Positions 621-31,448 of a stretch of 64,000 bases of DNA are shown here, piece after piece. Made by a program: the position numbers and the translations under genes. Origin of the DNA: Lunularia cruciata (lineage: Eukaryota; Streptophyta; Marchantiopsida; Lunulariales; Lunulariaceae). Each line of letters begins with the position of its first letter. The first letter of the stretch is position 1. The stretch lies in contig OX419761.1 in the NCBI GenBank assembly GCA_948567375.1, positions 27,380,243-27,444,242 of the forward strand, given 5' to 3'. The notes beneath the pieces were generated by a model, which saw only the letters and a list, made by a program, of their open reading frames with translations, had not been told where the DNA came from and did no database searches.

Positions 621-1829
621 TTAGAGAAGTGAAGTCAGGGGGAAATTGGGTGCAAGAACTTTGAGTGTTGGTGGTATCTCCAAGCTCGGTGGATCGTGGT
701 AGCTCGATTCAAGTTCTGTGTTTCCCTAGTGTGTAGAAGCTCAATCGATTGATGCAAATTTGGCAGTTAGGCGGATGGTGTGCGGAAGCGCTGGCCAAAT
801 TTTGAGCAAAGAAGGAGCAAATTTCAAGCAGTGTTGTGATTTTGACCTCAGGAGGTGAAGGCAGGACCAATTTGCTGCAAGTTGGGCTCAAAAAGTCAAA
901 TTGAAGGTGGAGTTGGGAAGCACTTCTCATGAATTTGTGATTTGGAAAAACTCGTGTTGTAAATTTAGCTTGAGTGGAAAGTTAGCAAGGGATTTGGAGG
1001 ACATCCATCTTTTGGGTTTATGTCAGATTTTGGTTGGGATTTATGTCAGATTTTGGCCAGAATTGGAGGAGTTTTTGCTGTTTGGCCAGATTTGGAGGAG
1101 TTTTGCTAGTTTGGAGGACTTTTGCAGATTTGGAGAAGTTTTGCCAATTTTGGAGGAGGTTCAAAGTGGCAACAAGAAAGGCCTCATTTGGCGTTTAGAG
1201 GCTTCGAGGCATAGGGCTGTGGGCTATGAAGGCCTAGAAGGGCCAGCAAGCCAGCTTGCTGGCGTGAGGCTAGCTAGTTTAGAGTAGATCTTGGTCATTG
1301 GTTGGCAAAATTTGCCTTTCTTGCTAGATTGTGCGCAATAGGGTTTGACCCCTAGATCTCTTATTCTTATACTGGTGCCCTAGCCAACTGGTCCACTCTC
1401 ACTTGTTGTCATAGTGACTATGCCACTATTATCTATACACATGTAGCTTTGGCTAGGAGAGGCAGTTTGATCCCATTCTTGGTGATCTTGGTAGCTTAGG
1501 ACTTAGATACAAACTCCTCTTATGTCAAATGCCAAATGGTGGCAGAGTCAGTCCCGTGTTGTGTTATGAGATGGAGGGTTTTTGTTTAGATTTCTTGTGA
1601 TTGGACCCCCTCTATTCTCTGCTTCCTATTTGTGCACCACGTTTGTGTGAGGTGCCTTGACTTTTGAGCTCTGGTGCTCTGGTGTGCTCTCGGTGGTGAG
1701 GCTGGAGTGATGACCAGTCAGACTACCTTTGTTTCTCTCCGATGAGGCAGGAAGTGATGACCTGCAGACCGTGAGAGTGCGTGTTATGATGGCAGATTAT
1801 AGGTTGCCCTTTCTCCTAGTGTAGTTATC
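621..1829 (+). other. Untranslated leader of element A
   Basis: No convincing coding sequence. A weak primer-binding-site candidate, TGGTATC, lies at about 670, but it matches the initiator-Met complement over only seven bases. At 1016-1165 there is an imperfect tandem repeat built on a GATTTGGAGGAGTTTTGC-like unit and on a repeated TTTATGTCAGATTTTGG. The part from about 1585 to 1820 resembles 31885-32105 further right, suggesting that a relative of A once stood there. Confidence 0.5.
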
Positions 1830-2601
1830 TTGGTTAGAGTTACATTAGTGGGTGGTGCTTGGTGGTGTTGGCACTTGGTGGGGTACTTGCGGTTGCAGTT
1901 GGTGGTTTGGGTTTACTGTTGTGGTTACTTTGTCACGACGGAGTTCTTTGGAGATTCCAGAGGAGTTAGCCCTATAGTACGCAGTGGGTTTACTCCGAGT
2001 GGTGCTTGGTATCAGCATGTATCTCAAGTCCCAATGAGGGAGGAGATTGACTCTGAGTTGGAGTTTGACACAGGAGCTGATTCAGTTGAGAGTGCACTTG
2101 GTGTGTCCGCACCGTTGTTGTGGGACATGGACAAGATCTATGGGGCCTCCAAAGGCCCTAGGCATTACTCTGGTATAGTGGGTACCATTGAGTTGGATGA
2201 CTTCATCCAGGAGTTTGATAGTTGGTGTGATCTACAGCATATGAGGAACCCGACTTTGTTCACACCCTTCATGGCATGGAAGGGGTTGTTTCAGCACTTG
2301 GAGGGTCCACCGATGGATGACTAGCATGAGTTCAAGAGAGCTCATTTGGAGGAGATTGAGTTATGGAGACAGTATTGGTCTCCACATTATGTTTCCATCA
2401 CTTCAGGCTTGGTGGCCAAGAGTAGATCGGCTGTACCCACGAGTTCTAGCTCGAGTAGTGTTGGTGGAGCTAGTAGAGGTGCACTAGTTGGAGATAATGC
2501 TACTACAAGTGGAGGTACCGCTGCAGGAGGTGGTGTGGTACCGGGGTTTAACCCCATGGTAGAGTTCTTCCTATGTTTGAGATAGAATTACCAAGGAGTG
2601 C
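1830..2601 (+). pseudogene. Element A gag, N-terminal part
   Basis: Gag-like coding sequence in one frame, with TAG stops at 2322-2324 and 2583-2585. The segment from about residue 100 on, with many acidic and aromatic residues (DDFIQEFDSWCD, then ELWRQYWSPHY), has the look of a retrotransposon capsid. The true start is uncertain: the frame is open from 1830, but its first residues look like non-coding sequence. Element B is inserted directly after it, and gag resumes at about 10433. B plus its 4-bp duplication is 7827 bp, a multiple of three, so the insertion itself does not shift the frame. Confidence 0.6.
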
Positions 2602-2605
2602 GGAC
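2602..2605. repeat. Target-site duplication of element B (GGAC), left copy
   Basis: GGAC stands directly before the TGTGAGC terminus of B and again at 10429-10432 directly after GTGTTACA. The next base on the right is T, which is also the first base of the LTR, so a 5-bp duplication with one base lost is also possible. Confidence 0.75.
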
Positions 2606-3295
2606 TGTGAGCCGGCCTGTCTCTCACTCAGGATGAACCTCTGATGGCTATTATGGTAGCGCACCATGGACTAAGAAGGCAAGGAACCCCAACTCCATCA
2701 TACTCCTCCAAGGCTAACACTCCAAGACTCAAGACATTGCTCACTAGAGAACTCAATGAGAGAGAGATAGTTGCAAATGAAAAGATGATGAGTACCTCCT
2801 CACCCCTTGTTTATATACTTGTGAAATAGTTACGTACCAAAGTTACTAATTACCGTAGTAACTCAAGTTACTAGACTAAAAGTCAAGTAAAGTCCAAAAG
2901 TAGAAAGGAATATCCATTCACATGGGCATATTCCCCTAAGCATGTGGTCTTATCTTGACCCAACCACTAAGTCAAGGATTCCTTCACATGGGCTATCCTT
3001 GGAATAAAGAAGAATCCAAAAGAAAAAGGTTTGCGGGCCCAAGAGTTCTCAACTCTTTCCTCAAAGCCAAACACCTAGGAATAATGCCAAGTCAACACAA
3101 TAAAATCCAAAATAGTGGGGCTCATCTTTTCTACTTCCTCTAAAGTAAGGTCCACTCTATCTTAGCTATGACTAACTTTAGCTAACCATGACTAATATAG
3201 AACCATCCTTTATCTCTATAAATAATATCTCTTAAGTACTTGTAATACCAAGCTAAATATCACAATACCACACACATGCACAAATGGGTGTTACA
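2606..3295 (-). repeat. 3' LTR of element B
   Basis: 690 bp, equal in length to the copy at 9739-10428 and nearly identical. On the plus strand it begins TGTGAGC and ends GTGTTACA; in the element's own orientation it begins TGTAACACCC. A TATA-like TATAAATAATATC is at about 3216 on the plus strand. Open frames inside both copies (2644-2829 and 9777-9962) reflect only the shared LTR sequence. Confidence 0.93.
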
Positions 3296-3307
3296 TTTAC
3301 CCCCGGA
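3296..3307 (-). other. Polypurine tract of element B
   Basis: Read on the minus strand, TCCGGGGGTAAA lies directly before the LTR terminus TGTAACACCC. Position and composition fit the plus-strand primer site of an LTR element. Confidence 0.7.
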
Positions 3308-3343
3308 CTAAGTTTTCACTTTGTCCTCAAAGTGAAGGTCTCT

Positions 3344-4461
3344 CTACCTTCTATGGTATATCTTCAACTTATCATGGTTAATCCTATCAAAGTGTCTTCC
3401 TCCCAACTCCTTGAGATCATAGGTGTAATTGCCCCACACCTTCTCTACTATAAAAGGTCCAAAGTACTTAGGCAAAACTTCTTTTGCACTCTCTTGAATC
3501 GAATGGAATCAAACAACATTACCCAATCACCTTCTTTGAAAGGCTCCACCTTCTTCTTGCCTTGCCTCTTGTCATAGCTCTCCTTTTGTTTCCTTTGGGC
3601 TTGCTCCACTCGAACCATAGCAACTGCTCTTGCCTCTTCCAACTCCATGAGTTGATCCTTCCTTGACTTCTCTGCATCACTTCCTTGTGCTTTCTTCAAT
3701 CTCCTATGAATGCTTTGGAAGGTAGGAAGATCAAAGTGAATAGGTAAGGTAGACTCAATACCATACACCAATTGGAATGGAGAATATCCGGTGGAAGTCT
3801 TCATGGTTGTCCTATACTCCCACAAAACTGCATGAATCCTCTTGTCCCAATGATGTTTAGCCCCCTCCATTTCTGCATCTTTGGCCAACATCATGCACAA
3901 GGTCTGATTGGTTCTCTCTGCCAAGCCATTGGAATTTGGCTTATAGGATGTAGTTACTCTATGTGTGATAGAGAAATGTTGTAGCATGGCTGTAGTAATG
4001 CTTCATGTAAACTCTCCTCCTCTATCAAAAACCAACTCCAAAGGGCATCCAAACCTAGTGATAATGCGTTCATAAAGAAATCTACCCACTTCATCTTCAT
4101 TCTTGTCCCTCAATGGTCTAGCCTCAACCCACTTGGTAAGGTAATCAGTAACTACCACAATGTACCGATTGTTCCTTGGGGTTCTATTGAGAGGTCCTAC
4201 AAAATCAATTCCCCACTTCTCAAAAGGTCCTAGCAATGGAATTGATCTAAGTGGTGGAGTGGATGTAGACTTTCTAGAAAAAGCTTGACAAACATGACAA
4301 GTTTTGCAATAATCAAGACAATCCTTGAAAATCCCTCTCCAATGGTAACCTGCATCTAGAATCTTGAAAGCAGTCACCTTTCCTGCAAAGTGTCCTCCAC
4401 ATAGTAAACCTTCATGAAACTCCTTTATGAGTAGGATAGCCTCTTCCTTACCCACTGCTCT
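3344..4461 (-). pseudogene. Element B integrase, broken end of pol
   Basis: Continues the gag-pol frame after an in-frame TGA at 4462-4464. The zinc-binding part shows an H...H pair (FHEG...GGHFAG) and the C-x2-C of CKTC. The catalytic core shows WGIDFVGPL, then FDRGGEF with the second aspartate, directly before another in-frame TGA at 4003-4005. The C-terminal part continues to about 3480, where one base seems lost (KRVQKKF then a frame change); the frame then runs to a stop at 3344-3346. I see no chromodomain. Integrase would insert the cDNA copy into the genome; this one cannot be made in full. Confidence 0.85.
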
Positions 4462-7400
4462 TCAAAGTAGACCATCTGCTCCTTGGTGAAAAAGAATATC
4501 CTCCACCATTGTGTAAGGTCTAGATCTTGCTGCAAGAGCCTTCCTCTCCCTAGCATGCATCCCTTCTGGATAGTTACCTCTTGTCACAAAATCCACAATC
4601 TCCTTGTACTCCATTGGAATCTCTTGAGTGAATGAGATTGTCATGAGCTCCTCATCCGGGAAGGAATCATCCACTGGCTCATCTCCATCATGATCATAGG
4701 CTCTAGATAATAAATCAGCATTTGCATGTTTCTTTCCTGGCCTATCTTCAATGGTGTAGTCATACTCAGACAAGAGTATCATCCACCTTGCTAGTCTCCC
4801 TTCAACATTAGGCTTGTTGAAGATGTACTTCAAAGCCTTGTGATCTGTGACAATGGTGGCTTTCCCTCCAATCAAGTAGTGTCTAAACTTCTTGAGACCA
4901 AAGATCACTGCCAACCCTTCTCTCTCCGTGACAAAGTAGTTCTTCTCTGCTGAAACCATCTGCCTACTAGCATAAGCTATTGGATGATCATGCCCATCTT
5001 GGTCTAATTGACTAAGAGTGCATCTTATAGCTACATTAGAAGCATCAGTGTAGAGGATGAAAGGTTTACTCCAATCAGGTTTAGCAAGAATTGGAGCTAC
5101 AACAAGGGATTGCTTGAGCTCCTCAAAAGCTTTGAGAGCCTCCTTGTCTTCCAAAATCACCATGTAATCTACACCCTTCTTCATGTAGATGGTCAATGCA
5201 TAAGCCTTGTTGGAAAATGAGAAGATGAACCTCCTATAGTACCCAACCATCCCCAAGAATTGGCGGAACTTTGTCAAGCTTGAAGGGAATGGAAGGTCTG
5301 AGATTTTCCTCACCTTCTCAGGATCAACTGCTATTCCATCCTTGGAGATGATATGCCCCAAAAGTAGACCTTCTTCACATCCAAAAATGCACTTCTCTGG
5401 GTTGAGTGATGCATTTGCCTCATCCAAGCGTTGCAAGACTTTGATTAGGTGCTCAAAGTGCTCCTCCTTGCTCCCATAGACACAAAAGTCATCAATGAAA
5501 TCTCTCACAAATTTCCCAATGAAAGGTTCAAATACCTTGTTCATGAACCGTTGGAATGTGGCTGGAGCATTGCAAAGCCCAAAAGGCATGACCTTGAAAG
5601 CGTAAGTTCCCCAAGGTGTGGTGAATGTGGTGAGTTGTTGATGCTCTGGTGCAATCTTGATTTGGTTATATCCACTATAACCATCTCCAAAACTGTACCT
5701 CTCATGATTTGCAACCTCCTCCAAGATCTCATCAATGAATGGCAATGGGTAGTAGTCCTTCTTGGTAACAGCATTGAGCTTCTTGTAATCCACACATACC
5801 CGAAGCTTGCCATTCTTTTTCTTCACAATGACAATTGGAGACACCCATTCTGAATTCTCCACCTCAAAGATAAATCCAGCCTCCTTGAGCTTATCAATCT
5901 CCTCCTTCACAACCAAAGATATTGGTGGGCTAATGCGACGTTGCTTTTGGCGGATTGGTCTTGCATGTGACTCCACCTCTATCTTGTGCTCCTCCAAGGT
6001 GACTTCCTTCAAATCCTTGTAACTAAAAGCAAACACATGGATGAACTTGCGGAAAATCTCCTCAAATCTCACTTTCTCCTCCTTGGTAACATTTGGGCCA
6101 TACTTGAGGGTAGATAACCTTCTCTCTACCTCCTCAAGTGTCAATGGTGATTTATCTGGGTCCTTCAAAACCTCTGGCTTAGGTGCAAAATCCATAGCAC
6201 ACAAAGGATACACATCTGAATCAGATTCAAATTCATCCTCCTCCGTGGAAGTCTCCTCTTCCATGCTTGTGTCCACACCTGAAGCTCCTTCTTTAGAATC
6301 TGATTCCCAATAATCAGAAGATGGTGTATCTGAATGTGAAGTGTTGGTGGTGTTAGTCACAGGAACAGTGACTCTATGGTTTGATGGCCCAATCCTCAAG
6401 TACCCTTTGTGCCATCGATCAGTTGTGCATGCTGCTCTCAACCATGGCCTCCCAAGAAGTAAGTCATAGCTTGAATCCTTCAAGACTTGGAAAGTCATGA
6501 GATTTTGAACTCCCATAACTGAAACTACCACCTTATCCATCACCCCTACTGGTCGAACTTGTTGCTTGTTTGCCATGCTCACCACAAATGTTGAAGGTCT
6601 TGAGGGTATCATACCCAACTTCTTCATCAACCTTTCTGACATGGCATTCACTGCTGATCCTCCATCAACCAATGCATCCTTGATGTTGTGACCATTCACT
6701 CTCACATCAATCTTGGAGGCATATTCACAAGCTTCCCATGGTGCTGGCTTGGCATCCACCACCCCCATTGATACTGGAACTTTTGCCTTCTTCTTCTTCT
6801 TGCTCCTTGTAGAACTCAAACCACCTCTAAGCTCCTTTCTCAAGGTAGGGTTCAAAGCAATTAATTGGCCCACTGTGATGTTAGCCTTGTGACTACCAAC
6901 ATCCTCCAACACATTGTAGTTCCATTGTTGCTTTGAGATCAAGAAGTCCTCCATCCCCAACTTCTTCCTTGGAGTCTTTGTTGTTGATGGTGTTGAGGTG
7001 CGAGTGCTCCTAGTAGACATAGGAGTATCCTTGCTTGAATTAAATCCTTGAGAAGAGTGAAAATCCTCTGCAAAACAAGCTCTCTTCTTCTCTTGTGCCA
7101 AAAGCTCCAAATTAAGACCCTTGGAGTTTGAGCACTCTCCCTTCTCATACTTGCTCTCAACCACATCTATGGATGCTATCCCCTTACCTTTGTTGGGATT
7201 AGGAGCCACTTGGGTTTCACTACCTCCCTCTTTCCCTCTATTGGCTCCCTCATAACCCCTTCCTCCATGGTAAGTGGAATTTGGGCAATTCCTTTGGATA
7301 TGGCCTCTTCCTCCACAACCAAAAAAATTTCTATCATTGAAATTGTTGGCTGGTTGGCCTCCTCTATATGGATAGTTTCCATAACTCCTAGGCCCTCTCC

Positions 7401-8169
7401 CTACATTCTGATCCACCTCTCTCTTCTCCCATAGTTGCACCACATTGATCTTGAGATCCGCAAGTTGTTCTGTGATGGTTTGGAGTGGATCTTTTGGTGG
7501 AGGTGCAAGAACTGGAGCAACTACTACTTGTGGTGCAACCCTTGTCACCAAAGTATCAGAAGTTCCACCATACTTGTAGCCTTGAGGAGGATGCACAACC
7601 TCCTTCACCACCAAATCACTCTCATCCCCTTCCAAACTCTCCTCCATACGAATTGCGATCTTGATAGCTTCAACCTTGGAAGAAGGTTTCTCATATCTCA
7701 CCTTGCTTCTAATTTGTGGTCTTAATCCTCCCACAAAATTCTTGGTGAGCATGGCCCCTATGCCAATCATTGTAGTCTCCACATCATCCCCACCCTTCCT
7801 CAACACTATGCAAAATCTGGACTCCAACTTTTCCACTCTTTCCACATAGACCCTCACTTTCTCTCCATCTCCTTGCTTGAGAAATGTAACCTCACTCATC
7901 AATCTCTCATAACTCTCATCAGGAAGAAAGTTCTCAATGAGTGCTGAAGTCAAAGTCTCCCAAGACTCCTCTTCCCCCTCTCTCCTCTCTCTCTTTTGGT
8001 ATTCTGACTCATACCATGTAAGTGCTGCATCCTCAAAGAAATCTGGTAATAATGAGGCCCACTCATTCTTCCTCCTCTCATTGTTTCCTATGCAAGCTCT
8101 CTTGAAGTCTCTCACAAAGGCCTCCACATCTTCTCCATCCTTGCCAAAGAAAACCGGAAGTTTCCCCAT
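4462..8169 (-). CDS. Element B gag-protease-reverse transcriptase-RNase H polyprotein
   Basis: Open frame of 1235 residues starting at an ATG. Gag capsid-like sequence covers roughly residues 1-240 (FFEDAALTWYESEYQ). A zinc knuckle lies near residue 283, but its first Cys is missing: FFGCGGRGHIQRNC has Phe where Cys is expected. The retropepsin motif VDGGSAVNAM is near residue 500 (about 6648-6675). The reverse transcriptase has RVCVDYKKLN, PFGLCNAPATFQ and the catalytic FIDD at about 5488-5500. RNase H has LYTDAS near 5045, then TEREGLAV and VTDHKALK. It ends at a TGA followed in the same frame by integrase sequence, so the stop is a mutation (CGA to TGA is the simplest single change), not the natural end. 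The protein would copy element RNA into DNA in cytoplasmic particles. Confidence 0.9.
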   Translation of the reverse strand: MGKLPVFFGKDGEDVEAFVRDFKRACIGNNERRKNEWASLLPDFFEDAALTWYESEYQKRERREGEEESWETLTSALIENFLPDESYERLMSEVTFLKQGDGEKVRVYVERVEKLESRFCIVLRKGGDDVETTMIGIGAMLTKNFVGGLRPQIRSKVRYEKPSSKVEAIKIAIRMEESLEGDESDLVVKEVVHPPQGYKYGGTSDTLVTRVAPQVVVAPVLAPPPKDPLQTITEQLADLKINVVQLWEKREVDQNVGRGPRSYGNYPYRGGQPANNFNDRNFFGCGGRGHIQRNCPNSTYHGGRGYEGANRGKEGGSETQVAPNPNKGKGIASIDVVESKYEKGECSNSKGLNLELLAQEKKRACFAEDFHSSQGFNSSKDTPMSTRSTRTSTPSTTKTPRKKLGMEDFLISKQQWNYNVLEDVGSHKANITVGQLIALNPTLRKELRGGLSSTRSKKKKKAKVPVSMGVVDAKPAPWEACEYASKIDVRVNGHNIKDALVDGGSAVNAMSERLMKKLGMIPSRPSTFVVSMANKQQVRPVGVMDKVVVSVMGVQNLMTFQVLKDSSYDLLLGRPWLRAACTTDRWHKGYLRIGPSNHRVTVPVTNTTNTSHSDTPSSDYWESDSKEGASGVDTSMEEETSTEEDEFESDSDVYPLCAMDFAPKPEVLKDPDKSPLTLEEVERRLSTLKYGPNVTKEEKVRFEEIFRKFIHVFAFSYKDLKEVTLEEHKIEVESHARPIRQKQRRISPPISLVVKEEIDKLKEAGFIFEVENSEWVSPIVIVKKKNGKLRVCVDYKKLNAVTKKDYYPLPFIDEILEEVANHERYSFGDGYSGYNQIKIAPEHQQLTTFTTPWGTYAFKVMPFGLCNAPATFQRFMNKVFEPFIGKFVRDFIDDFCVYGSKEEHFEHLIKVLQRLDEANASLNPEKCIFGCEEGLLLGHIISKDGIAVDPEKVRKISDLPFPSSLTKFRQFLGMVGYYRRFIFSFSNKAYALTIYMKKGVDYMVILEDKEALKAFEELKQSLVVAPILAKPDWSKPFILYTDASNVAIRCTLSQLDQDGHDHPIAYASRQMVSAEKNYFVTEREGLAVIFGLKKFRHYLIGGKATIVTDHKALKYIFNKPNVEGRLARWMILLSEYDYTIEDRPGKKHANADLLSRAYDHDGDEPVDDSFPDEELMTISFTQEIPMEYKEIVDFVTRGNYPEGMHARERKALAARSRPYTMVEDILFHQGADGLL

Positions 8170-8403
8170 CTTAACCCCTCAATATCTTTCTTTTCTCTCA
8201 ATTTTTTTTTCTCTTTTCTTTTCTCTCACTCTATTACTAATAGAGTATATACATGACTAACACCATCTGAGAATAATCCACTCTAGGAAACACAAAAGGT
8301 TCAGGTTGCTCCAAGATTTCTATAGCAACATCAAATCCTAGAGTGCATATTAATCTAACTCTCATGGATAGTTTATCCATAAGTTGAAAGATTATCTCCA
8401 TCA

Positions 8404-8877
8404 CTAATCTTGAGAACTAGCTGATGAAGGTGGTAGTATTTCTGTAGCTGTACTAAGACTCTCTCCAAGATCCTTCACCAAAGTTTCCAAAAGTGCTTTT
8501 ACTCCACTACACTCATGTCCTTTTGGAAGTCCTTCAACTCCACAAACCTCACACAACTCCTTGGTCTTAGATCTTTTCCCTCCCAATCTTGGTGAAGAAG
8601 GTCCAACATGCAAACCCAAGTCAAGTAAGCCTCTCCTTTCCCTCAATCTCTTGCTCTCAAAGGTCAATGGACATGAACTTGCCTTATGTCCCTTCTCTCC
8701 ACATAGAAAGCACTTAGACTCACTCTTTCCTCCAAGTGGTGTAGGTTTTTGGATCCTCTCAACACTCTCTTCAAATTCTATTGTAAACTCTCTTTTCCTC
8801 AAATCCACCCTTACAATCACCTCAAACCCTTGGGGAACCTTGCATAATCTCAATTTCCACTCTTGATGACCCTCCAT
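8404..8877 (-). CDS. Extra CCHC zinc-knuckle open frame upstream of gag in element B
   Basis: Open frame of 157 residues from the first ATG (8875-8877); the frame also runs 24 bases further upstream without an ATG. A clear CCHC knuckle, CFLCGEKGHKASSC, lies near residue 55. A second Cys-rich motif, CEVCGVEGLPKGHEC, follows near residue 107. The N-terminal half is rich in charged and hydrophobic residues and is not recognised. A short region before a C-terminal zinc knuckle is reminiscent of the nucleic-acid-binding ORFs of some plant retroelements, but that is only an impression. The frame lies between the primer-binding site and gag, on the same strand. Upstream (about 8850-9040) another frame is open, so this may be the end of a longer, frameshifted protein. 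Confidence 0.55.
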   Translation of the reverse strand: MEGHQEWKLRLCKVPQGFEVIVRVDLRKREFTIEFEESVERIQKPTPLGGKSESKCFLCGEKGHKASSCPLTFESKRLRERRGLLDLGLHVGPSSPRLGGKRSKTKELCEVCGVEGLPKGHECSGVKALLETLVKDLGESLSTATEILPPSSASSQD

Positions 8878-8901
8878 GTTCCCCAAGATGAATCTAAACA
8901 C

Positions 8902-9716
8902 TCAAACATGCTTTTTGTTGATCTCAAACTTCTCATGCATGAGATCTCCACTCTGCAGAATTGACCCTTCCTCACAATGTCACTCAAATCTCCCAACCAA
9001 TATGTCACAGTCCTCTGAAATTTTCCACACTTGATCACAACTCCAGGGCGTCCCTCCCTGCAAAATTTCAGATCTTTTCATTGAGCCATTTGGCCTAGAC
9101 ACCTTTCTATTCAGCACCCATATTTCAGATTTGGTCTGAAAACCATTCCCCTCACTTCAAAAACTCATAACGCCCTGCACAAAAACGGTCTCTCTCTAAA
9201 TTTTTGTGGCAGCAGGTAGGATACAATGCACTAAATTTTCTTGGAAATTTTCAGGACAATTCACTGAAAATTAAAGAAATGGCAGACTCTGTACAATTTT
9301 CCAGAGAGCATGCAGTTGCGGGAGCACTTTACCCTATCAACTTTCAAAAATTCTAGCCCAGTGCGCATAGAAGCTCTCTCAATAATTTCAAGTGTGCTAA
9401 CTGAAAGATAACCCAAGCTATCATGTGTAGAAATCTCAAGTCCAGATCTCAAACTTGAGATTTTGCCCAAAATCACCTTAATCCCCAAAATCTGCAATCC
9501 ACCTCACACAATCTCTCCAATTCCTCTCATGTGTACAAGATGTACAAAATCACCTCAAAGACATCATAATGAACTACAGGGTATACAAATGGATCTTGGT
9601 TCTCTAACATAAGTTCAGCCCTCTCCTCTCCTAATGTTCTCTCCAAGTGAGCTCTCATAGCCTCCTTCTGCCTAATGTAGAATTGGACGCGGAACATTAT
9701 CTTGCCTTCTAGAGAG
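8902..9716 (-). other. Leader of element B
   Basis: Region between the 5' LTR of B and its zinc-knuckle frame. Two short minus-strand frames look somewhat protein-like (8850-9038 and 9527-9694, the latter starting MFRVQFYIRQ), but neither matches a family I know. Most of the stretch is best treated as untranslated leader. Confidence 0.4.
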
Positions 9717-9734
9717 GTCCCGGCAACGGAACCA
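9717..9734 (-). other. Primer-binding site of element B
   Basis: On the minus strand, four bases after the 5' LTR, the sequence reads TGGTTCCGTTGCCGGGAC. It is close to the TGGCGCCGTTGCCGGGGA site used by many plant Tat/Athila-type gypsy elements, usually assigned to a tRNA-Asp primer. The position after the LTR terminus supports it. Confidence 0.75.
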
Positions 9735-9738
9735 AAAA

Positions 9739-10428
9739 TGTGAGCTGGCCTGTCTCTCACTCAGGATGAACCTCTGATGGCTATTATGGTAGCGCATCAT
9801 GGACTAAGAAGGCAAGGAACCCCAACTCCATCATACTCCTCCAAGGCTAACACTCCAAGACTCAAGACATTGCTCACTAGAGAACTCAATGAGAGAGAGA
9901 TAGTTGCAAATGAAAAGATGATGAGTACCTCCTCACCCCTTGTTTATATACTTGTGAAATAGTTACGTACCAAAGTTACTAATTACCGTAGTAACTCAAG
10001 TTACTAGACTAAAAGTCAAGTAAAGTCCAAAAGTAGAAAGGAATATCCATTCACATGGGCATATTCCCCTAAGCATGTGGTCTTATCTTGACCCAACCAC
10101 TAAGTCAAGGATTCCTTCACATGGGCTATCCTTGGAATAAAGAAGAATCCAAAAGAAAAAGGTTTGCGGGCCCAAGAGTTCTCAACTCTTTCCTCAAAGC
10201 CAAACACCTAGGAATAATGCCAAGTCAACACACTAAAATCCAAAATAGTGGTGCTCATCTTTTCTACTTCCTCTAAAGTAAGGTCCACTCTATCTTAGCT
10301 ATGACTAACTTTAGCTAACCATGACTAATATAGAACCATCCTTTATCTCTATAAATAATATCTCTTAAGTACTTGTAATACCAAGCTAAATATCACAATA
10401 CCACACACATGCACAAATGGGTGTTACA
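9739..10428 (-). repeat. 5' LTR of element B
   Basis: 690-bp copy of 2606-3295. In the element's orientation this is the promoter-bearing upstream LTR. It is followed on the plus-strand side by the right-hand target duplication GGAC at 10429-10432. Confidence 0.93.
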
Positions 10429-10432
10429 GGAC

Positions 10433-11913
10433 TGACAAGCTGAGGAGCTTGCAGGAGTTCCAGTGGAAGGCTGGAGAGAGCCTACGGAGGCATACACTCG
10501 CATGAGGTGGCTGATCAGTTTCACTCAAGGTGTAACTGAGGCCCAGGAAGTCCAGTTTTGGTATGGGATACTGGACATGGAGTTATGACATAGAGTTGTG
10601 ATGCTACGTTGTTGCATGCTACTTTGCCCACTTTGGCAGTAGTCTTTGGTTTGGCTGAGTGTATTGAGCTCAATATGGTGGAGGAGAGAGTGGTGACATC
10701 TGGATTTGGTAGGGGGACCTCATCCATGGCTGTGACTTCTTCTAGAGTGCAGTAGAGTGCACCACGCCCAGTTGGTTTTCAAGGACAGGGTGGACAGCCC
10801 AGATCCTATGGAGCGAGTGGAGGGCCTAGTAAAGTTAGACCCTTACCCTCATTTTTGAGTCAGCAGCAGCTAGTGAGTGGTGGTGTTGCTTGTTGGACTT
10901 GTGGTGGACCTCACCATCGGAGAGAGTGTACTCAGGGCAGCAGACCTGATACCTCTAGTGCATCACATCCAACATAGAGGTAGTGTAAGCACTGCCACAG
11001 ATTTGGTCACACTAGTGACCAGTGTTTTGACCTACACCCGGAGTTACAAAGTGGTAGGGCTTCTATGGCAGGTAGTAGAGGAGCTCCAGTTCATGGAAGA
11101 CGAGGTGGTAGAGGTGGTGGTAGAGGATCTACACCTAGTAGGAGTGCAGTACCTGCCCTTACTTTTGACATAGCTTTGGCTACTCGGATTGAGTAGTTGG
11201 AGCAGAGATTGGCTAGTATAGCTATTGCTCAGAGGAGATCAGATTTGGGTGCTGAGGCTTCCACCTCATATGCTGGTGATAGAGATGCTTTGGACTTCAT
11301 GTGCAGATCAGCATAGGTGGATGCATCTACAGCAGTGACTAGGAATGCAGTACGTGCTCCAGAGCCTAGAGGAGCATCAGTGGAGTTGGACCCATAGAGA
11401 GGAGAGGTTGGGAGACAAGTCAAACTTCCCCAGTCTTTCACACTATCTGAGGCATTGCAGACGACATCCATGGTTCCTAGACGTCCCAATGTAGGTGTGG
11501 TAGGTGGTGATGGAGTACATGATGGACTACCTGCTAGTCAACCACCTGCTACTATAGAGATTGAGTCTAGCATGATGTTGGGAGCGGCTTAGCTGATTAT
11601 GCGGCATCCTTTATTTTCAGCCAGTGACATGTTTACATTGGGAGTTGACCCAACCCTAGTGTTCCGGTTGGCTGCCACATTGTGTGAGAGTAGGGATGGT
11701 GCAGTTCCTACTACTAGAGCAGAGGTGGTTGGTAGTGGAGCTGACTTGGTTGAGGAGCATGGGATCCGTTCAGGGACCAATGGTTTATGGCAGGCAGCAA
11801 CGGCTAGACTGGAGGAGTTGCCAACTAGACCGGCCTTTGAGAGAGCGCGGTTTACACCTGGTGTTGTCCTATTGGATAACCAGAGGGGGATTTTTTTTTG
11901 GTGGGACCTTTAG
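10433..11913 (+). pseudogene. Element A gag, C-terminal part with two zinc knuckles
   Basis: Gag resumes after element B. The first 60 codons shift frame twice (near 10485 and 10600); from about 10620 one frame holds to 11913. Two CCHC knuckles are visible: CWTCGGPHHRREC at about 10888 and CKHCHRFGHTSDQC at 10984. Two arginine/glycine-rich patches follow, typical of nucleocapsid. In-frame TAG stops are at 10753, 10975, 10981, 11194, 11314, 11395 and 11590. The last part is acidic and poorly conserved. The frame ends at a TAG (11911-11913) just after a homopolymer run where protease would begin in the -1 frame. Confidence 0.75.
11887..11899 (+). promoter_or_regulatory. Candidate -1 ribosomal frameshift site between gag and protease of element A
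   Basis: GGGA followed by nine T. The gag frame reads ATT TTT TTT TGG and stops 12 bases later at 11911. The protease frame is -1 relative to gag and is open across the run. T TTT TTT in the zero frame fits the X XXY YYZ slippery pattern. A chance length change of the homopolymer in a dead copy would look the same. Confidence 0.35.
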
Positions 11914-12656
11914 GGAAGGTCTATACACCACAGAGAGTCTTGTTAGACTCTGATGCGCAGCCCTTTATGTTGGGGAAGGCTGCAGTTGTTGGTCTGGAGT
12001 TACGGAAGACCGATGTGGAGAGGTGTCCATTTCAGATCCAGACATCTCTAGGTGGTGGTTCGACATAATACATCACACGTGGAGAGCTTGTCGTCCAAGT
12101 TCAGCTTGGTCATCCGATTGATAGCTCGGTGGTGAGAGCTCAGGCTATTGTGATGATAGCTGAGTCATATGATGTGCTAGTTGGGGGAGCAGTGTTATAC
12201 CCCATGGGTTTTAGCATTGACTGTTGGGAGGAGACAACCTCTTATAGACCTGGTTGGTAGTCTGGTGAGGGACGGGTATGTCACCTACCAGTACGCTTCA
12301 GTAGTGGCAGTCTTGGCTCACTACAGTCCGGGACCATGGCAGCATCAGTTTTAGCTTTTAGTGGTGCAGTTACTTGACCTGGTGACTTGTTGGAGGGGAA
12401 CGCCCATGCAGAGGATACTCCAATACCAGAGGAGATCACTTGGCTTTGGAGTACGAGTGGCATTGTTCCATCCACCTTGGATGTTCCATTGTGGAGTTCA
12501 GAGGAGGCATTGTAGCAACATGCAGATCAGTTGGTGCAGTAGGCTTGGAGTGGAGCCTTTGTACCATCAGGAGATGAGTGTGAGGATGAGCCTCCAGAGG
12601 CAATTGCTTTGACACCTCTGGATACCACACTCATTGCTTGGCAGTATCCAGTAGAG
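11914..12656 (+). pseudogene. Element A retropepsin-like protease and linker
   Basis: Frame carrying VLLDSDAQPFMLG at about 11937-11975, matching the D-S/T-G-A active-site region of retropepsins. The catalytic glycine position is Asp here, so the site is mutated. Downstream, YDVLVGGAVLYPMGF at about 12170 resembles the hydrophobic ILG-type motif that closes a retropepsin fold. The rest is an acidic linker leading into the methyltransferase without a frame change. In-frame stops are at 12066 (TAA), 12258 (TAG), 12375 (TGA), 12513 (TAG) and 12540 (TAG). Confidence 0.7.
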
Positions 12657-13620
12657 GGGATATGCCTATTGGAGTTGTTTGGTGGGATCAACATCGGACT
12701 AGCTGCAATGTTACAGGCGGGTATACGAGTACAGAGGTACTTGTATGTATAGAAAGATGAGACTGCTAGGCGAGTCTCTCTACATCATATGGCACACTTG
12801 GCCTATCGGTATCCGGAGTTATTAACAATGTCAGCAGTCAGAGGTTACCAGAAGGCCCTACTAGGAGACATTTCCTTACTGGGGGCGCATGACCTAGAGA
12901 GACATGGGCCTATTCACTTGGTGATTTCTGGATAGCCATGTCAGGGACATACACATGCTGGTAGAGGATTGGGTCTTTAGGATCCTCGTTCAGGTGTGTT
13001 TTGGGAGATGTTACGGATACTAAGACATCTCCAGGTTCATCAATCCGTTTCTCTAGCTTACTTTTTGGAGAATGTTCCTTTGATGGGTGATTCTTGCACT
13101 AGAGTGGTGGCGAGTACACATCAGGTCCATTCTTGGATAGGACTTGCTGTATTGTTAGATGCAGCCAGAGTGGGATCACGGGCTTTGGTGGACAAAACTC
13201 TTACCCAGAGAGGTTCTACAACGCGCTTATAATGGGATTCAACGACTTGACCACATCCTTGTGGATGACATCTTGGATGTTGGGCGTCAGTCTCAGACAG
13301 TGGTAGTGGCTGATAGGTCACCTATAGCAGTGGTGAACCTAGTTGGACAGCCTAGAGCTGCATTTCCCACACTCATGAGTTTCCCAGGCTCTCATGCTTT
13401 TCAAGAGGGAGGACCTGGACTTGTTTGGGACTCATAGTAACAACAATTGGTGGAGCCCAACGCTGATGAGAGAGAGCGGGTGATGGGTTTTCACACCGGT
13501 ATTACCACTGTTCCAATAGTGTTAGAGGCATCCAGGCATCAAGTGTTAGGTCTGGCTATGGACCTGAACTGTTTGACCTGGATTGTGAGCCTTGGCTTGG
13601 CAGAGCAGTGTAGGATGCGC
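12657..13620 (+). pseudogene. C5 cytosine DNA methyltransferase domain within pol of element A
   Basis: The sequence shows the motifs of a cytosine-5 DNA methyltransferase in canonical order. Motif I, LELFGGINIGL, binds S-adenosylmethionine (12669-12701). Motif IV has the catalytic PCQ (12936-12944) followed by GHTHAGRGLGL. Motif VI is LENVP (13065-13079). The motif VIII area (GSR, near 13173) carries a one-base frameshift. The target-recognition part includes AAFPTLMSFPGSHAF. Motif IX-like ADERERVMGF is at 13462-13491 and motif X-like LGLAMDLN at 13546-13569. The order I to X excludes the rearranged DRM type; GIRVQRY after motif I recalls DNMT3-type enzymes. In-frame stops are at 12750, 12933, 12978, 13435 and 13438. 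It lies between protease and reverse transcriptase, so it was part of the polyprotein. Intact, it would methylate cytosine in DNA. Its role for the element is inference. Confidence 0.88.
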
Positions 13621-15597
13621 TTGATAGGCATCACCACTCGGACACTTGTGAGCCTTGTGCCTTTAGAGACAATTCAGGCACATGCTGGGGGCGATGGACC
13701 GAGTGGACATGGTATTCTTGCGACACATCCAGTAGCTACTAGGGAGAGTGGTCTACTTGGAGTCCATCCAGGTGAGCGTGGGCTACTTGGATTACACCCT
13801 TGGTCCACATAGGATGTAGCTAGAGGACATGTGGAGCTTGCAGCCAGAGTGGAGGGAGTTTTTCACACAGAGGTTGGGACTTCTAGTGGTTGGGAGCAAG
13901 ACACTATTGCTCCCAAGGGCCCAGAGTAGCAGCCAGTCAGTACGTCTTCCACTCTTACTACAGTTACAGAGGATACTTGGGAGCCAGATCTTGGACCCAA
14001 GCTCACTGGAGAGGAAAGACGGAGGGTTTGGAGGTTCTTGAGGAGTTACATGAGTTGTTTTGCCTTCAGTATGAAGGATTTGGGTGCTTTGAAGGGACCT
14101 GGTATACGGATTGAGCTGACTAGCGACACACCTATTTTCCGACATCCTTATCGATATAGTGATATGGAGAGGACATTGATTCAGAGCCGGAGTAGTGACC
14201 TTTTTGAGGCTGGTTTGGTGGAGATTTCACATGGAGAGTATGCATCAGCGACAGTGATGCCAACCAAGAAGGATATGCATGGCAACTATACAGATAGGCG
14301 GATGTGTGGAGATTACCGTCCTATCAACCAACAGACCAGGGCTGATCGGTATGCCATGCCTACACCGGAGGAGATTTTTGATGCGATTGGGCATGCAAAG
14401 GTCTTCAGTACTTTGGATCTTTGAGCGGGATATCATCAATTGCCAATCAGGGAGGAGGATAAGTCCAAGACAACATTTTGGGCTATTGATCCTCACGGCA
14501 AGGATGTGTTATATCAGTGGAGGTTCTTATAATTTGGGTTGAAGAACGCTCCTGCTGAGTTCCAGAGGGTCATGGATAGGATCCTAGTTGGATTGGATTT
14601 TGCTTGGTGCTATATTGATGACATTTTGGTTTATAGCACTACTATGGAGGAGCATGAGAGACAATTGTTGGAGGTGTTTGAGAGGTTGAGATCTCATGGA
14701 CTCAAATTTCATCCTGGGAAGTGTAGGTTCTTCCACGAGCAGGTTGAGTATTTGGGTCACACTATCTACCCCGGAGGACTTGGTGTCCAGCAGACCAAGG
14801 TGGAGGCTATTGCACGTATTCCTCGGCCTATGGATGTGAGCAAAGTGCGAGCATTCCTTGGGTTGGCGAACTTCTATCGCCGCTATGTTAGAGGATTTAG
14901 TGCCATTGCCAAGGCCTTGACGAAGCTGACCAAGCTTACATAGGAGTGGTGTTGGGGAGATGAGTAGGAGAGAGCTTTTGTAGAGCTCAAGGAGAGGTTG
15001 ACATCTGCTCCTATTTTGAGGAGACCAATCAGGGGATGACCATTTCAGGTTCATACTGATTGGAGTATGTTGGGGCTTGGAGCGGTGCTCACCCAGCATG
15101 ATGATGAGGGGAAGGAGTTTGTGGTGGCCTATGCTAGTTGCTCCAACAATTCAGCAGAGGCAAAGTATAGTTCATATGAGGGAGAGTGCTTGGCAGCAGT
15201 TTGGGCAGTAGCACATTTCCGATGTTACCTATTTGGTAAACCCTTCACTCTCATCACTGATCATCAGCCGCTGAAGTGGTTGATGGAGTCCGACAAGCTT
15301 TCACGGAAGCTTGCACGATGGGCTCTGATTTTACAAGAGTATGATTTCACGGTTGTTCACAGACCTGGAGTGGTGAACCGTGATGCAGATGGGTTGAGTA
15401 GAAACCCATGTCCTAGCCAGCAGGATCAGACCGGAGCACGTTGGCATGGTAAGACAGATGAGGAGATGGTGCCAGGTTGGCATGCATCGGCCTTTGTGTG
15501 TATATTTGCAGAGACTTTGGTGGTATCTCTCTCAGCGCATACAAGAGGAGTTATTGAGGTCATAGATCCAGAGAGTGAAGATATTGGTACAGTTTAG
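13621..15597 (+). pseudogene. Element A reverse transcriptase and RNase H
   Basis: One unbroken frame interrupted only by stop codons. After a linker of unknown role (13621-14030), reverse transcriptase shows CGDYRPINQ (near 14309), FSTLDL at a TGA (14422-14424), FGLKNAPAEFQRVMD, the catalytic YIDD at 14611-14622, and FLGLANFYRRYV. RNase H shows VHTDWS, YEGECLA and ITDHQPLKWL, supplying the acidic residues D, E, D, then RDADGLSR. Stops are at 13810, 13927, 14941, 14965 and 15595 (TAG), 14422 and 15037 (TGA) and 14530 (TAA). No indel is needed from 13447 on. These enzymes copy the RNA and remove the RNA strand. Confidence 0.9.
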
Positions 15598-16701
15598 CGA
15601 GACATTCATGATGATGTCTTAGTGATGGACTATCTTCGTACTGGTGTTGTGGGTGGCACAGTTGGGGCCAAGGAGAGAGACCGTGTTCTTCAGCGAGCCA
15701 GACGGTTCAGATTGGAGGGTAGACACCTTTTGCGTGTATGGGAGGATGGTAGAGTGCGAGTAGTACCACTTCCATCACAGAGACCACGGTTGGTCCGTCA
15801 TGCTCATGAGGAGCTAGGACATTTTGGAGTAAAGCGTACATATAGCTTACTTCTAAGTCATTATTAGTGGCGCAATATGCAGACCAAGGTGCAGTAGTTT
15901 GTTGCCAGATGCATGGTTTGTGACCAAGTTAGAGCATCATTCAATGCTCCTACGCCACAGTTACACCCATTACCTATCATGGGATTGGGTTACCGTTGGA
16001 GTTTGGACTTTGCCGGACCTTTACCGCTGACTGTGAGACATCATCGGTATGTTTTGGTGATGGTGGAGCACTTCTCCAAGTGGATTGAGTTGGTGGCACT
16101 TCCTGACAAGTCTAGTGAAGGGACAACTTACTCGTTCCTGGATCAAGTTCTTAGTCATTTTGGTGCACCAGCTGAGGTTTTGACTGATCAGGGTACAGAG
16201 TTCTTGGGGGAGTTTCAGGTCTTGTGTGACAAGGCTTTGATTGATCATTGTACTACATCCCGAGATCACCCTGAGGCAGATGGCTTAGCAGAGAGAGTGG
16301 TTCAGACGGTGAAGAGAGGATTGCAAAAGTATGGTTTGCAGAGAGGCCACTTGGGAGATCGGGATCTCCAGTTACCTTGGTTGGCCATGGGCTATCAATT
16401 CAGCCGGCAAGCCTCCTTAGCATCCTTCTCTCCATAGTTTCTACTGTATGGACGAGATCCAGATTTACATGCAGCCATTCGTCGAGATGCTACTGTAGTT
16501 GTGGACTTGGATGACCCCGATGTATGGATGAGCGCATGTTCTCAATGGGCAGAAATCTTTCGGAGAGTGATGCCGATGGCCTTTGAGAACTTGGCGATTG
16601 CTCAGCATAGAGATACTTTACGCTATGCTACCATTCAAGGAGGAGGTTATAGACCCTTGATCCGTCAATTTCATCCATGCAACTATGTATATCTACAGTA
16701 G
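15598..16701 (+). pseudogene. Element A integrase
   Basis: Same frame as reverse transcriptase. The HHCC zinc region has HAHEELGH (near 15799) and CMVC (near 15913). The catalytic triad is visible: D in WSLDFAG (about 16006), D in TDQGTEF (16186) and E in GLAERVV (about 16291). TAG stops are at 15865, 15895, 16435 and 16699. Past the core, FLLYGRDP and a C-terminal region lead into the PHD-bearing tail. Integrase joins the cDNA to chromosomal DNA. Confidence 0.9.
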
Positions 16702-17043
16702 ACAGCACCGACGACACTTGATGTTTCTACAGGCCGCACTATCTTGAGAGTGCACGAGGTTTTGCCATCTGGAGTCCTTGTGTTAGAAGGACGTGATGGT
16801 GTTGTTTGGAAGGATCATGTGCGCAATTGTGCGCCATGCCACCTTCCAAACATTGATGGTACTATGGACCCAAGCTTGGCACTTGTACGTGCAGGCTTGA
16901 GGTGTATGTTATGTGGCTCTTCTGGTGGAGCTGCTACTATGTTAGAGTGTGATAGCTGTTTGAGAGGATGGCATATGGCATGTATGACTCTTCCCCTCAC
17001 GGTGGTTCCTCAGGGACAATGGTTATGTCCTAGATGTACTTGA
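16702..17043 (+). pseudogene. PHD finger at the C-terminus of the element A integrase
   Basis: The integrase tail runs straight into a C4HC3 PHD finger: CMLC (16903-16914), CDSC (16948-16959), H-x2-C in GWHMAC (16972-16983) and CPRC (17026-17037), with the conserved Trp in GQWLCPRC. All eight ligands are present with normal spacing, and this 99-residue stretch has no internal stop. The final TGA at 17041 looks like the natural end of pol. PHD fingers usually read histone H3 tails by methylation state, so this may have steered integration much as the chromodomain does in chromoviruses. That role is inference. Confidence 0.88.
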
Positions 17044-17200
17044 CCTATAGCTAGTTCATTCTTTATATGGTATAGATTGCAGACAGGCGACTAACGATGG
17101 GGCTCCATAGCACTCGGCCTCCTGATCTTTGCCCATTAGAGGGTATACCATATACTTAGAGTAGATGGCTATTTGGAGTTAGAGGGACCTAACCGCCAGC

Positions 17201-17212
17201 TAGGGGGGCAAT
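17201..17212 (+). other. Polypurine tract of element A
   Basis: TAGGGGGGCAAT stands directly before TGTGGCATTTTAG, the first base of repeat unit X1. If this is the true tract, the LTR begins with unit X and not with TGTCACGCC. Confidence 0.6.
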
Positions 17213-18234
17213 TGTGGCATTTTAGAGTCTATGTATGACTTATGTGTGAGTTGTGCTTCTATAGTGTATGATGTTGACAACGATGTATGTTGTGTAGCAA
17301 TGTATATACGCACGACAACTGTCACGCCATTTGTAGTTCCGCATCTAGTTGCTCGGACACTGGAGTTCCAGTGATAGTAGTTAGAGTTATTCTAGTAGTT
17401 TCTCAGGGACTACTTTCCAACAGTCTGATTTGGGGTTCGGGGTACTGACTTCACGGTGGGGCTCACCGTCACTTTGCACCGTTCGCACCGTCGAGTGTGC
17501 CATCAGTGGGACCGTTAGGGTTCCAGTGCTAGCTCAAGTCCAAGGGGGTATAGTTTCGAAGTGAGCTCCAGAGAGCTCACTTCTTTGATATTGAGCCTTT
17601 GAGTTCCTGGCTATGGTGGACAGAGGCTGGCGAGCATGACCTGGATTCTCTATGCTTGAGTGGGTGTGGCTTGATTGTAATCAGTGCCTAGTTGTTGGTA
17701 GTTTATAGAGTGACAGATCAAGTACTGATCTGAGTTGAGTTGAGTTGAGAGTGTTAAGCAATCTGATTATTGTGGCACTTTAGAGTCTATGTATGGCTTA
17801 TGTGTGAGTTGTGCTTCTATAGTGTATGATGTTGACATCGATGTATGTTGTGTAGCAATGTATATACGCACGACATAGGGTTTCAATGCTAGCTCAAGTC
17901 CAGGGGGTATAGTTTTGAAGTGAGCTCCAGAGAGCTCACTTCTCTGATGTTGAGCCTTCGAGTTCTTGACTATGATGGACAGAGGCCGGCAAGCGTCACA
18001 TGGATTCTCTATGCTTGAGTGGGTGTGGCTTGATTGTAATCAGTGCCCAGTTGTTGGCAGTTTATAGAGTGACAGATCAAGTACTGATCTAAGTTGAGTT
18101 GAGTTGAGAGTGGTAAGCAATCTGATTATTGTGGCACTTTAGAGTCTATGTATGACTTATGTGTGAGTTGTGTTTCCATAGTGTATGATGTTGACAGTGA
18201 TATATGTTGTGTAGTGATGTATATACGCACGACA
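17213..18234 (+). repeat. Compound 3' LTR of element A: units X-Y-X-Y'-X
   Basis: Two sequence units alternate. X, TGTGGCA...CGCACGACA of about 106 bp, is at 17213-17319, 17771-17875 and 18130-18234. Y, about 450 bp starting TGTCACGCC, is complete at 17320-17770 and shortened (starting at AGGGTTTC) at 17876-18129. Y is the unit at the 5' end of the element. The array resembles tandem LTRs with one partial copy, arising by unequal exchange or by integration of a tandem-LTR intermediate. Confidence 0.75.
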
Positions 18235-21200
18235 TCCATGACCATAATATCCCCCATAACTATTGAAGGCAATGTCATCCAAAATTGTCAAATTGATATA
18301 GGCTCCTCCATCAACATTATGACAAAGTGAGTTATGCAAACATTAGGATTGCAAAGCATAACTAAAACTTTGACCCTTCTTTGAATGAATGACAAAAGAA
18401 GGCACCATCCTATTTGGATGTTAATCAAAGTACCCACATTCATTGGTGAACAAACCTTCCTAGTGGATTATTTGGTCATAGATACCCCTCCTCTTGCACA
18501 ATCTCCACTTTTATTAGGAGTCCCATGGTTGGTAGATGTGGACATCATTACTTCTTAGAAAATTAGGAAGTTAACTTTTGGGAAGAAGTCAAATCACACT
18601 ATTCTTCTTATGTACCCTATCAACCAAAATTCTAGTTTGGATTAGGAAGGAGAACCAGGCTTTGCTTTTGATGCATGGAACCCAGTTATGTTGATAGTGA
18701 TGAGGAGATTATGGATGCCATTGATAATTATCTATTTATAATCAAGAAGGAGATGAGCGGTCATGTAGTATCTAAGGTTACAAGGATGATAAAATCATCC
18801 AAACCTCTCTCCATGTCACCTACCAAACTCACATTGTACTCAACAAACTCATTTTTGAGACTAATCTATGCTAATATTACTAAACAACTCTAATGCACAT
18901 CATGAATAACTCTCACAAAAAAATCATGGCCTTGTTCCCCTTACAATATGCACAAGAACATATGTACACTCCCTAACCCTCTTGCTGCTTCTACATCAAG
19001 GATGAAATTGTTTATAAGGACAAAAAAACCAATGACAAATGTTTCCTTGACATAAAATAACAACAATCTCCTTGACAACAATCTCCTAGATGATATTGTC
19101 ATTCCCAAGGATAGCAAAATAGAAGCCATGCGGGACGACAAGGCTTCCTCAACCAATTCTAAAGAGATATGCCTACATAATGCAATGTGCGGGATGCAAG
19201 ATGTGAGGTGTGAAACTCTTCAGCCTGTACCATTGTTGCCACCACCAAACAAATTATTCCAAAGAGAAATGCAAAAGAGTAGGAAGTCTATCAGACCATA
19301 CTTGATCTAGAATTTTCACACTTCTTTCTGAACAAACCTCCAAGACATGCAAAAAAAACCATTCCTCTACAATTACAAGTCATGGAGAAATTCAAAGATC
19401 TAGATATCTCCTATGCAAAAGAAGCCCATAGATATGTATGGTTGAGTACCAATGTGGGTACCAACAAGCATCATATGTATCAAGAACTCTTCCACAAATT
19501 CAGAGATGTCTTTCCTTGTGATTATATAGAATTGATGGGCGTGAATCCAAAAACATGTCAACATCACATATTGTTGCATACATATGCAATTCTTGTTTGA
19601 TCTAAACCATACAGATTGAACTCCATCTACTCCCAAAAGGTATAATAAGAATTAGACAAACTACTAAAGAGTGGGTTCATCTATCCCATAGGTGAATTTA
19701 AGTGGGGATTGCTGATTCTAGTAGTTCTAGAAAAGGATACAAGAAAAGTAAGGATCTACATAGAGTTCCATAAATTGGATACCCAAACTATACCTAATCC
19801 TTTTCCAATTCCATTAACAAATACCTTGTTGGATAGAGTAGCCCCAGAAGATCAATACAAAACCACATTTGTCATTGAGTGGGAGAGTTATGCCTATTGA
19901 GTGATGCCATTTGGACTATGGAACGCCACTGCAACATTTCAACAATACATGATGAATTCTCTTGGAGAAGTATAGGATGAGCTAGAACTCTACCTCAACA
20001 ACATGTGTATACATAGTTCACACAACAACCATGTCCAAGCATTGTGGGCTGTTCTACAAATCTGCTAGAATATTAGGATTTCCCTCAAAAATATGTATAA
20101 TTGCTATTTCTTGTGGACCTCTCTTAGGCCATCTGGTCTGCAAAAATGGTCTCATAGTTAATCCAAAAAAAATTCAAGTCATTGCACAACTGCCCATACC
20201 CAAGACAATATGCAGCCTTCAACACTTCTTTGGCTAGACAAGATATTACTGCCGGTATGTCCACACATATGCTAAGATAACATCCAAGTTAATTGTACTA
20301 CAACACTTCATGGTGGATTTCTTATGGACACATATCAATGTATTGAGGCTTTTGAGACCTTGAAAACCAAACTAGCTATGGCCTCTAATTGGCCGCACCA
20401 AATTTAGAAATTACCTTTCATGTATTGATACATCCAACACAACAATGGGTGCTATCCTTGCCCGTTACAATGACTAACAACAAGAACATCCCATCTACTA
20501 TGCTAGCCATCAGCTCAACTTTGTAGAGCAAAACTACTCCACCACTAAACAAGGATGCTTTGCATGATTTTTGCTACTCAGAAATTCCCACATTACCTAA
20601 TGGCCCATAGTTTTGTATTCCATTTAGATCACAAAGCCCTTAAGTACCTCATCAACAAGCCCTATCACTCAAGATGTTTAGTGCATTAGATGCTACTCCT
20701 TTAGGAATTCTCCTTTTCAGTTGAGTAGTGCCCCGGCAAGTCTCATGATAATGTAGGACTTCCTTTCCTACATTCTTGGATCTCCAATGATGAACTTCCT
20801 ACAGATTTTGTAGATTTCCATCTCTTCTATGTGTAAGATCAAGTTAGTACTCAATCAATGTGGATGGATCAAATCAGACATTACTTATCTATAGGAAGGG
20901 TTCTGTCCAATCTACCATGCAACCATCATAAGAGCTTTCATATGTTGATCCTTCTCTCCACAATCCTTCTAGAAGACCTTTACCAAATGGGCGTGGGCTG
21001 AGTGCTCTAACATTGCATTGGCCCAAAAGAAATTCATGTAGTACTCAAGGCATGCCACTCTAACAAGAGAATTGAACACTTCTTAGGCAAGCTAACTTCC
21101 CACAAAATCTACTTGATAGGTTACTGGTAGCCCTTAGTCCCCCAAGATGCCAATCAATATGCTAGTTTGTGTGATGCTTGCCAACACATTGGCAAACACA

Positions 21201-31439: not shown

Positions 31440-31448
31440 AATAAGGTT

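Follow-up and report, generated by a model that had tools for sequence, protein, structure and literature searches.

Methyltransferase-bearing retrotransposons and the Lunularia locus

Retrotransposons are a main target of DNA methylation, and an element that carries its own methylating enzyme is therefore a paradox. Elements bearing a DNA methyltransferase of the DNMT3 type have been described in print from dinoflagellates and from one charophyte alga, Klebsormidium nitens, in the main text and figure legends of de Mendoza et al. 2018 (PMC5890265). The algal case, KnitGypsy-Dnmt3, is a Gypsy-type element; A-coding-B-A-B repeats are described for SymbioDIRS-Dnmt3 of Symbiodinium and, by reference to DIRS elements, for KnitGypsy-Dnmt3 (PMC5890265, legends of Figs 1 and 4). 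The available text of PMC12344493 cites the dinoflagellate and K. nitens cases and names the elements long terminal repeat (LTR) Copia and DIRS. Here we describe an element of this kind in a 64,000-nucleotide stretch of the liverwort Lunularia cruciata (GCA_948567375.1, contig OX419761.1, forward-strand positions 27,380,243 to 27,444,242; hereafter the window, in whose own coordinates all features are given, on the plus strand unless stated).

The methyltransferase-bearing Gypsy-type element spans window positions 170-18234 and is split by a younger Gypsy element at 2606-10430. Profile scans and alignments with relatives revealed the domain order gag, protease, DNMT3, reverse transcriptase (RT), RNase H, integrase and PHD finger. 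Both the domains and their order bear out the original prediction, made from the DNA letters alone, that an LTR retrotransposon here encodes a methyltransferase of its own, placed between protease and RT.

KnitGypsy-Dnmt3 is the closest known system, likened here by domains and by repeat layout as described rather than by sequence. The two share Gypsy-type domains, a DNMT3 held within the Pol polyprotein without the DRM-type rearrangement, and DIRS-like A-coding-B-A-B repeats (one window copy compared with the two figure legends). Unlike its algal counterpart, the window element resides in a liverwort, has relatives in Sphagnum and ends its polyprotein with a PHD finger; the words Marchantia, moss, liverwort and PHD are absent from the main text of PMC5890265. 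With SymbioDIRS-Dnmt3, as described there, it shares split repeats and the union of DNMT3 and RT in one Pol frame, but the dinoflagellate element belongs to another host lineage and has a tyrosine recombinase where the window element has an rve integrase. No report of bryophyte DNMT3-bearing retrotransposons appeared among the matches listed (titles and beginnings of abstracts, with subscription papers, preprints and supplements outside this range), where a single paper carries the name KnitGypsy, and element-borne DNMT goes unmentioned in the available text of PMC9985172, PMC9516144, PMC10952607 and PMC8616336.

Two broader comparisons place its unusual domains. Plant chromoviruses are Ty3/Gypsy elements with a chromodomain after the integrase; the window element likewise has a chromatin-reader domain C-terminal to the integrase, but this is a PHD finger instead of a chromodomain, and the extra DNMT and the split repeats set it further apart. 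The catalytic domain of animal DNMT3A and DNMT3B is about 25% identical over superposed residues to the predicted model of a relative, whereas the window DNMT sits in a retrotransposon polyprotein. Pfam scans of the window element and of several relatives detected no PWWP or ADD domain.

The methyltransferase domain and its relatives

Translation of the DNMT3-type C5-cytosine methyltransferase (12648-13632) revealed LFGGI at 12675, PCQ at 12936, ENV at 13068, a motif VIII-like LWWTK at 13183, and the X-like motifs ERERVMGF (13468-13491) and LGLAMDLN (13546-13569). This canonical order agrees with the motifs named in the original prediction and adds LWWTK to them. With stops entered as X, the N-terminal piece of the domain matched the Pfam DNA_methylase profile PF00145 (E 4.7e-8; 33.3 bits against a cut-off of 22), so that the profile check attached to that prediction came out positive; in NCBIfam it gave dcm at 31.7 bits, under that model's cut-off of 100.65. 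The C-terminal piece by itself matched nothing in Pfam or NCBIfam, and it aligns with the equivalent part of longer relatives, for example P0113 and P0114, at 67-68%.

A single open frame through the domain was rejected. The domain uses frame 0 up to about 13180 and frame 1 beyond; frame 0 contains eight stops in 11898-13230, three of them inside the domain, and frame 1 contains fourteen between 13177 and the closing TGA (17041), of which two fall inside it. Because its DNMT domain is spread over two frames and interrupted by five stops, the window copy is a relic and cannot make the enzyme.

The identity of the enzyme was assessed by a PDB search, which ranked DNMT3A first (E 1.4e-6) and DRM2-named chains at 0.019, and by the predicted structure of a relative's domain, which has a DNMT3-like fold with a poorly predicted loop behind PCQ. 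Sequence ranking and predicted fold together support a methyltransferase that resembles DNMT3 more than it does DRM, DNMT1, DNMT2 or bacterial enzymes, in line with the type first proposed; a DRM or DNMT1-type identity was rejected by the ranking. No DRM-named chain stood among the 50 entries listed by a VIA-align fold comparison, which is no evidence against kinship.

The remaining coding regions were located by three-frame translation of window positions 10001-18300, by profile scans and by comparison with relatives. The N-terminal part of gag (2127-2601) was recognized by frame translation and comparison by eye with P0114, and is interrupted by the nested element. The C-terminal part (10522-11913, frame 1) has zinc-knuckle-like cysteines, seen by eye; the 175-residue piece that holds them had no Pfam match. 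An aspartic protease region with linker follows at 11898-12647 (frame 0); by itself it matches nothing in Pfam, but it can be aligned to the corresponding regions of P0113, P0120 and P0123, the last of which matches PF13650. Downstream of the DNMT domain lie RT and RNase H (14290-15342, frame 1; PF00078 4.7e-30, PF17919 3.6e-31, PF17917 4e-36) and an integrase with H2C2 zinc domain and rve core (15775-16272; PF17921 4.1e-15, PF00665 9e-14), giving the RT-RNase H-integrase order that characterizes Ty3/Gypsy elements. The PHD finger (16897-17043; PF00628 9.8e-12) forms the C-terminus of the polyprotein and is followed by TGA; its best PDB matches, CHD4, MLL3, KMT2D and DPF3, do not fix its ligand.

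To place these domains in a wider context, we gathered 95 related proteins, 78 with a 335-residue DNMT query and 17 with a long query scored over its first 150 residues. All protein searches were restricted to 0.55-1.75 times the query length, so polyproteins of K. nitens and copies from vascular plants may lie out of reach; within that length range, no K. nitens-named match occurred among the 95. Organism names are attached to 29 of them: Marchantia polymorpha 19 (8 + 11), Marchantia paleacea 1, Riccia sorocarpa 1, Calypogeia fissa 4 (3 + 1) and Sphagnum species 4 (3 + 1). The names of the 19 M. polymorpha clusters stem from at least two annotations and some loci may be represented twice, and six of the 11 from the long-query search are labelled partial. 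A viral_contigs scan with P0114 gave no match.

Window pieces were mapped onto 22 chosen relatives for domain order and identity. Protease precedes DNMT in the mapped relatives that hold both, and gag precedes protease where it is reached. The DNMT domain is followed by RT in P0115, P0116 and P0120 and by both RT and integrase in Sphagnum P0124; in M. polymorpha P0126 a DNMT remnant is followed by integrase and PHD. Because several relatives are incomplete annotation models (stretches are missing from P0124 and P0126), the order gag-protease-DNMT-RT-integrase-PHD is a composite of several of them. The PHD finger recurs in P0126 and P0127. Behind the PHD finger of P0127, at residues of about 1650-1881, a second methyltransferase-like stretch (DPWAGTG ... 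TSPWF) was noticed by eye; one element may thus hold two methyltransferases, and a search for solved relatives of this tail found none that was convincing (best E 0.61).

Protein alignments establish that the DNMT domain is conserved among the relatives. The window domain is 65-69% identical to the least-damaged M. polymorpha copies (P0113, P0114 and P0120), compared with 69-78% for RT, 44-54% for protease and 35-46% for gag; the integrase reaches 69% over 45 residues (P0120) and 79% over 224 residues (P0126). For KnitGypsy-Dnmt3 the yardstick of purifying selection on the DNMT is a Ka/Ks below 0.2; in the protein-level proxy used here, the identity of the window DNMT is nearer that of RT than that of protease or gag. 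Counted without the rows gapped at each motif (41 of 95 for motif IV), covering relatives have PCQ in 51 of 54 cases and PYQ in 3, ENV in 56 of 64 and ENI in 3 of 64, and LFGGI in 46 of 57; PF00145 is matched by 23 of the 24 members of the family alignment. These patterns support the retention of an element-borne DNMT3 by the relatives.

Phylogenetic analysis of the DNMT domain comprised 38 rows, 37 of the 95 relatives covering enough of it. The tree revealed a 12-row M. polymorpha branch (100/100; ten labelled rows plus P0125 and P0126), a pairing of the two Calypogeia rows (100/100) and a branch uniting the two Sphagnum rows with five others (100/99), while the window copy falls within a 25-row branch (97/89) at an unsure exact place. 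A separate branch for each named host group is as expected of old residents; horizontal transfer may also account for it. The existence of relatives in other liverworts and in Sphagnum suggests that the DNMT is an old, conserved part of such elements.

Split terminal repeats and the nested element

Self-comparison of the window and alignment defined the repeats of the element, whose layout is read from one copy at the DNA level. Repeat A1 (170-618) begins with TG at the 5′ terminus, without a B after it, and is 90% identical to A2. At the other end, a purine-rich, polypurine-tract-like run (17199-17210), read in the sequence and putative in function, stands just before repeat B1 (17211-17317), which ends in CA and is followed by the dinucleotide AC. 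Then come A2 (17320-17768), starting with TG; B2 (17769-17875), 97% identical to B1; A3 (17876-18127), a partial extra copy of repeat A; and B3 (18128-18234), the 3′ terminus, ending in CA and 93% identical to B1. The layout is accordingly A-coding-B-A-B plus one tandem repeat (A′-B), inside a short target-site duplication, TCCA, at 166-169 and 18235-18238. An identical complete LTR at both ends, as is usual for Ty3/Gypsy elements, is not seen: the 5′ end has A only and the 3′ end B-A-B-A′-B. A search of positions 1-2605 for B-like sequence gave no convincing match (best E 1.3 over 9 bases).

The flank match extends to six bases (TCCATG) when the element's own TG is included. Among 20,000 random position pairs, matches of at least six within two bases of register occurred in 0.8%, and matches of at least four in 10%. 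The AC at 17318-17319, between B1 (...CA) and A2 (TG...), resembles two joined unprocessed complementary DNA (cDNA) ends, a junction that suggests how split repeats could regenerate ends. No tRNA genes were found in the window (ARAGORN, bacterial code), and a primer-binding site sought by eye downstream of A1 yielded none that we could name.

Repeats A1 and A2 differ by 37 transitions and 8 transversions. Relative to the number of sites of each context in the two copies, the transitions concentrate at CG (10 of 48), less so at CHG (10 of 91) and least at CHH (17 of 290), in keeping with an old insertion that was long methylated and deaminated, whatever the methylating agent.

The nested Gypsy-type element (2606-10430, minus strand) is inserted within the gag of the older one and flanked by GGAC on both sides. 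Its LTRs differ at 6 of 692 positions, and its gag-pol frame (4462-8169, 1235 amino acids) is open through RNase H. A Pfam scan of this element detected no DNMT; its RT-RNase H and the one encoded by the DNMT element share 36% identity.

Elsewhere in the window, the one intact host gene recognized, a calmodulin-like gene (58156-58899, minus strand), encodes a product 67% identical to a Marchantia paleacea protein and 62% to an M. polymorpha protein; identity to proteins from Riccia and to the product of another M. polymorpha gene is 46-51% (matches to E 1e-40). By itself this gene marks the host as a liverwort, probably of the complex thalloid group and probably other than Marchantia. Two further pairs of dispersed direct repeats were also recorded, at 25846-25983 and 31448-31584 (93% identity) and at 38690-39490 and 46968-47763 (68% identity), and an integrase-like fragment was recognized by eye at 30242-30688.

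Proposed function and alternative explanations

We consider it likely that the window holds a degenerate copy of a bryophyte Gypsy-type lineage, gag-protease-DNMT3-RT-RNaseH-integrase-PHD, arranged here as A-coding-B-A-B, whose DNMT methylates the element itself de novo. De novo cytosine methylation is what DNMT3 does, and the enzyme probably serves to methylate newly made element DNA in this way. Intact copies would have the DNMT domain freed by their protease, or would keep it in the integration complex, and the enzyme would then methylate cytosines of the fresh double-stranded cDNA or of the new insertion. The PHD finger, at the chromodomain position of chromoviruses, may read histone state and help pick the integration site. 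By methylating itself early, the element could spare the host some harm, or set the timing of its expression, and still spread. The window copy has lost all of these abilities.

Several observations weigh against this interpretation. CpG observed/expected is 0.36 in the DNMT element, against 0.33 for the remaining window sequence and 0.13 for the nested element; there is thus no mark of extra self-methylation, and extra CpG depletion was rejected as its sign since 0.36 is not below 0.33. The transition-rich differences between A1 and A2 could equally stem from methylation by host enzymes. Many M. polymorpha copies are gapped or lack parts of the domain, with identity down to 50%. P0127 has the order RT, RNase H, DNMT, integrase, PHD, and the domain order is therefore not universal; the Gypsy superfamily call itself comes from domain content and order rather than from an RT tree. 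Finally, KnitGypsy-Dnmt3 produced no methylation in yeast, a result its authors call inconclusive (main text of PMC5890265); according to the same paper, SymbioDIRS-Dnmt3 is active in yeast.

The yeast result would also suit a DNMT domain that no longer methylates and is retained in the polyprotein for DNA binding or for structure, as would the PYQ in place of PCQ in three of the 54 covering relatives; with motifs I, IV, VI, VIII and X conserved in most covering relatives, and a predicted fold that is DNMT3-like, though poorly predicted in the loop after PCQ, we regard this as quite unlikely. Capture of a host DNMT gene fragment by chance in a single retrotransposon is scarcely credible and was rejected: nothing was found in its favour, and relatives from Marchantia, Calypogeia and Sphagnum likewise have the DNMT behind the protease, and ahead of RT where that is reached. 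The split repeats might instead be an accident of the window copy, an LTR A+B element having lost its 5′ B and gained B copies at its 3′ end. The DNA-level view of one copy and the further tandem duplication that the 3′ end plainly underwent (A3-B3) speak for such an accident; B1 lies directly between the coding region and A2, with no A ahead of it, the outer TG and CA ends sit within a matching target duplication, and the layout equals that printed for KnitGypsy-Dnmt3, all of which makes it doubtful.

The enzyme might also act on the host, many copies, expressed by accident or regularly, supplying DNMT3-type de novo methylation where the host enzymes are MET, CMT and DRM. In the available text of PMC5784723, the methyltransferases listed for M. 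polymorpha number five (one MET, two CMT and two DRM) with no DNMT3 among them, against 19 M. polymorpha-named family clusters, and PMC5890265 suggests such spill-over for Symbiodinium. However, those clusters are possibly double-counted and partly incomplete, and liverworts may have a host DNMT3, given that PMC6453930, in its available text, has DNMT3s conserved among non-flowering streptophytes; action on the host is accordingly weighed lower, as unlikely. The same report lowers the weight of a broader proposal, which we hold to be rather unlikely, that one split-repeat Gypsy lineage with DNMT3 and PHD has existed in streptophytes since before the split of mosses and liverworts and, in liverworts without a listed DNMT3, provides most of the DNMT3-type de novo methylation that survives. 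If this were true, a transposon would keep a silencing tool that its host lost.

Conservation of this architecture across liverworts and Sphagnum would make it a lasting strategy among land-plant elements and no curiosity. Its presence in Marchantia, a model plant, would make an element's gain from methylating DNA directly testable there.
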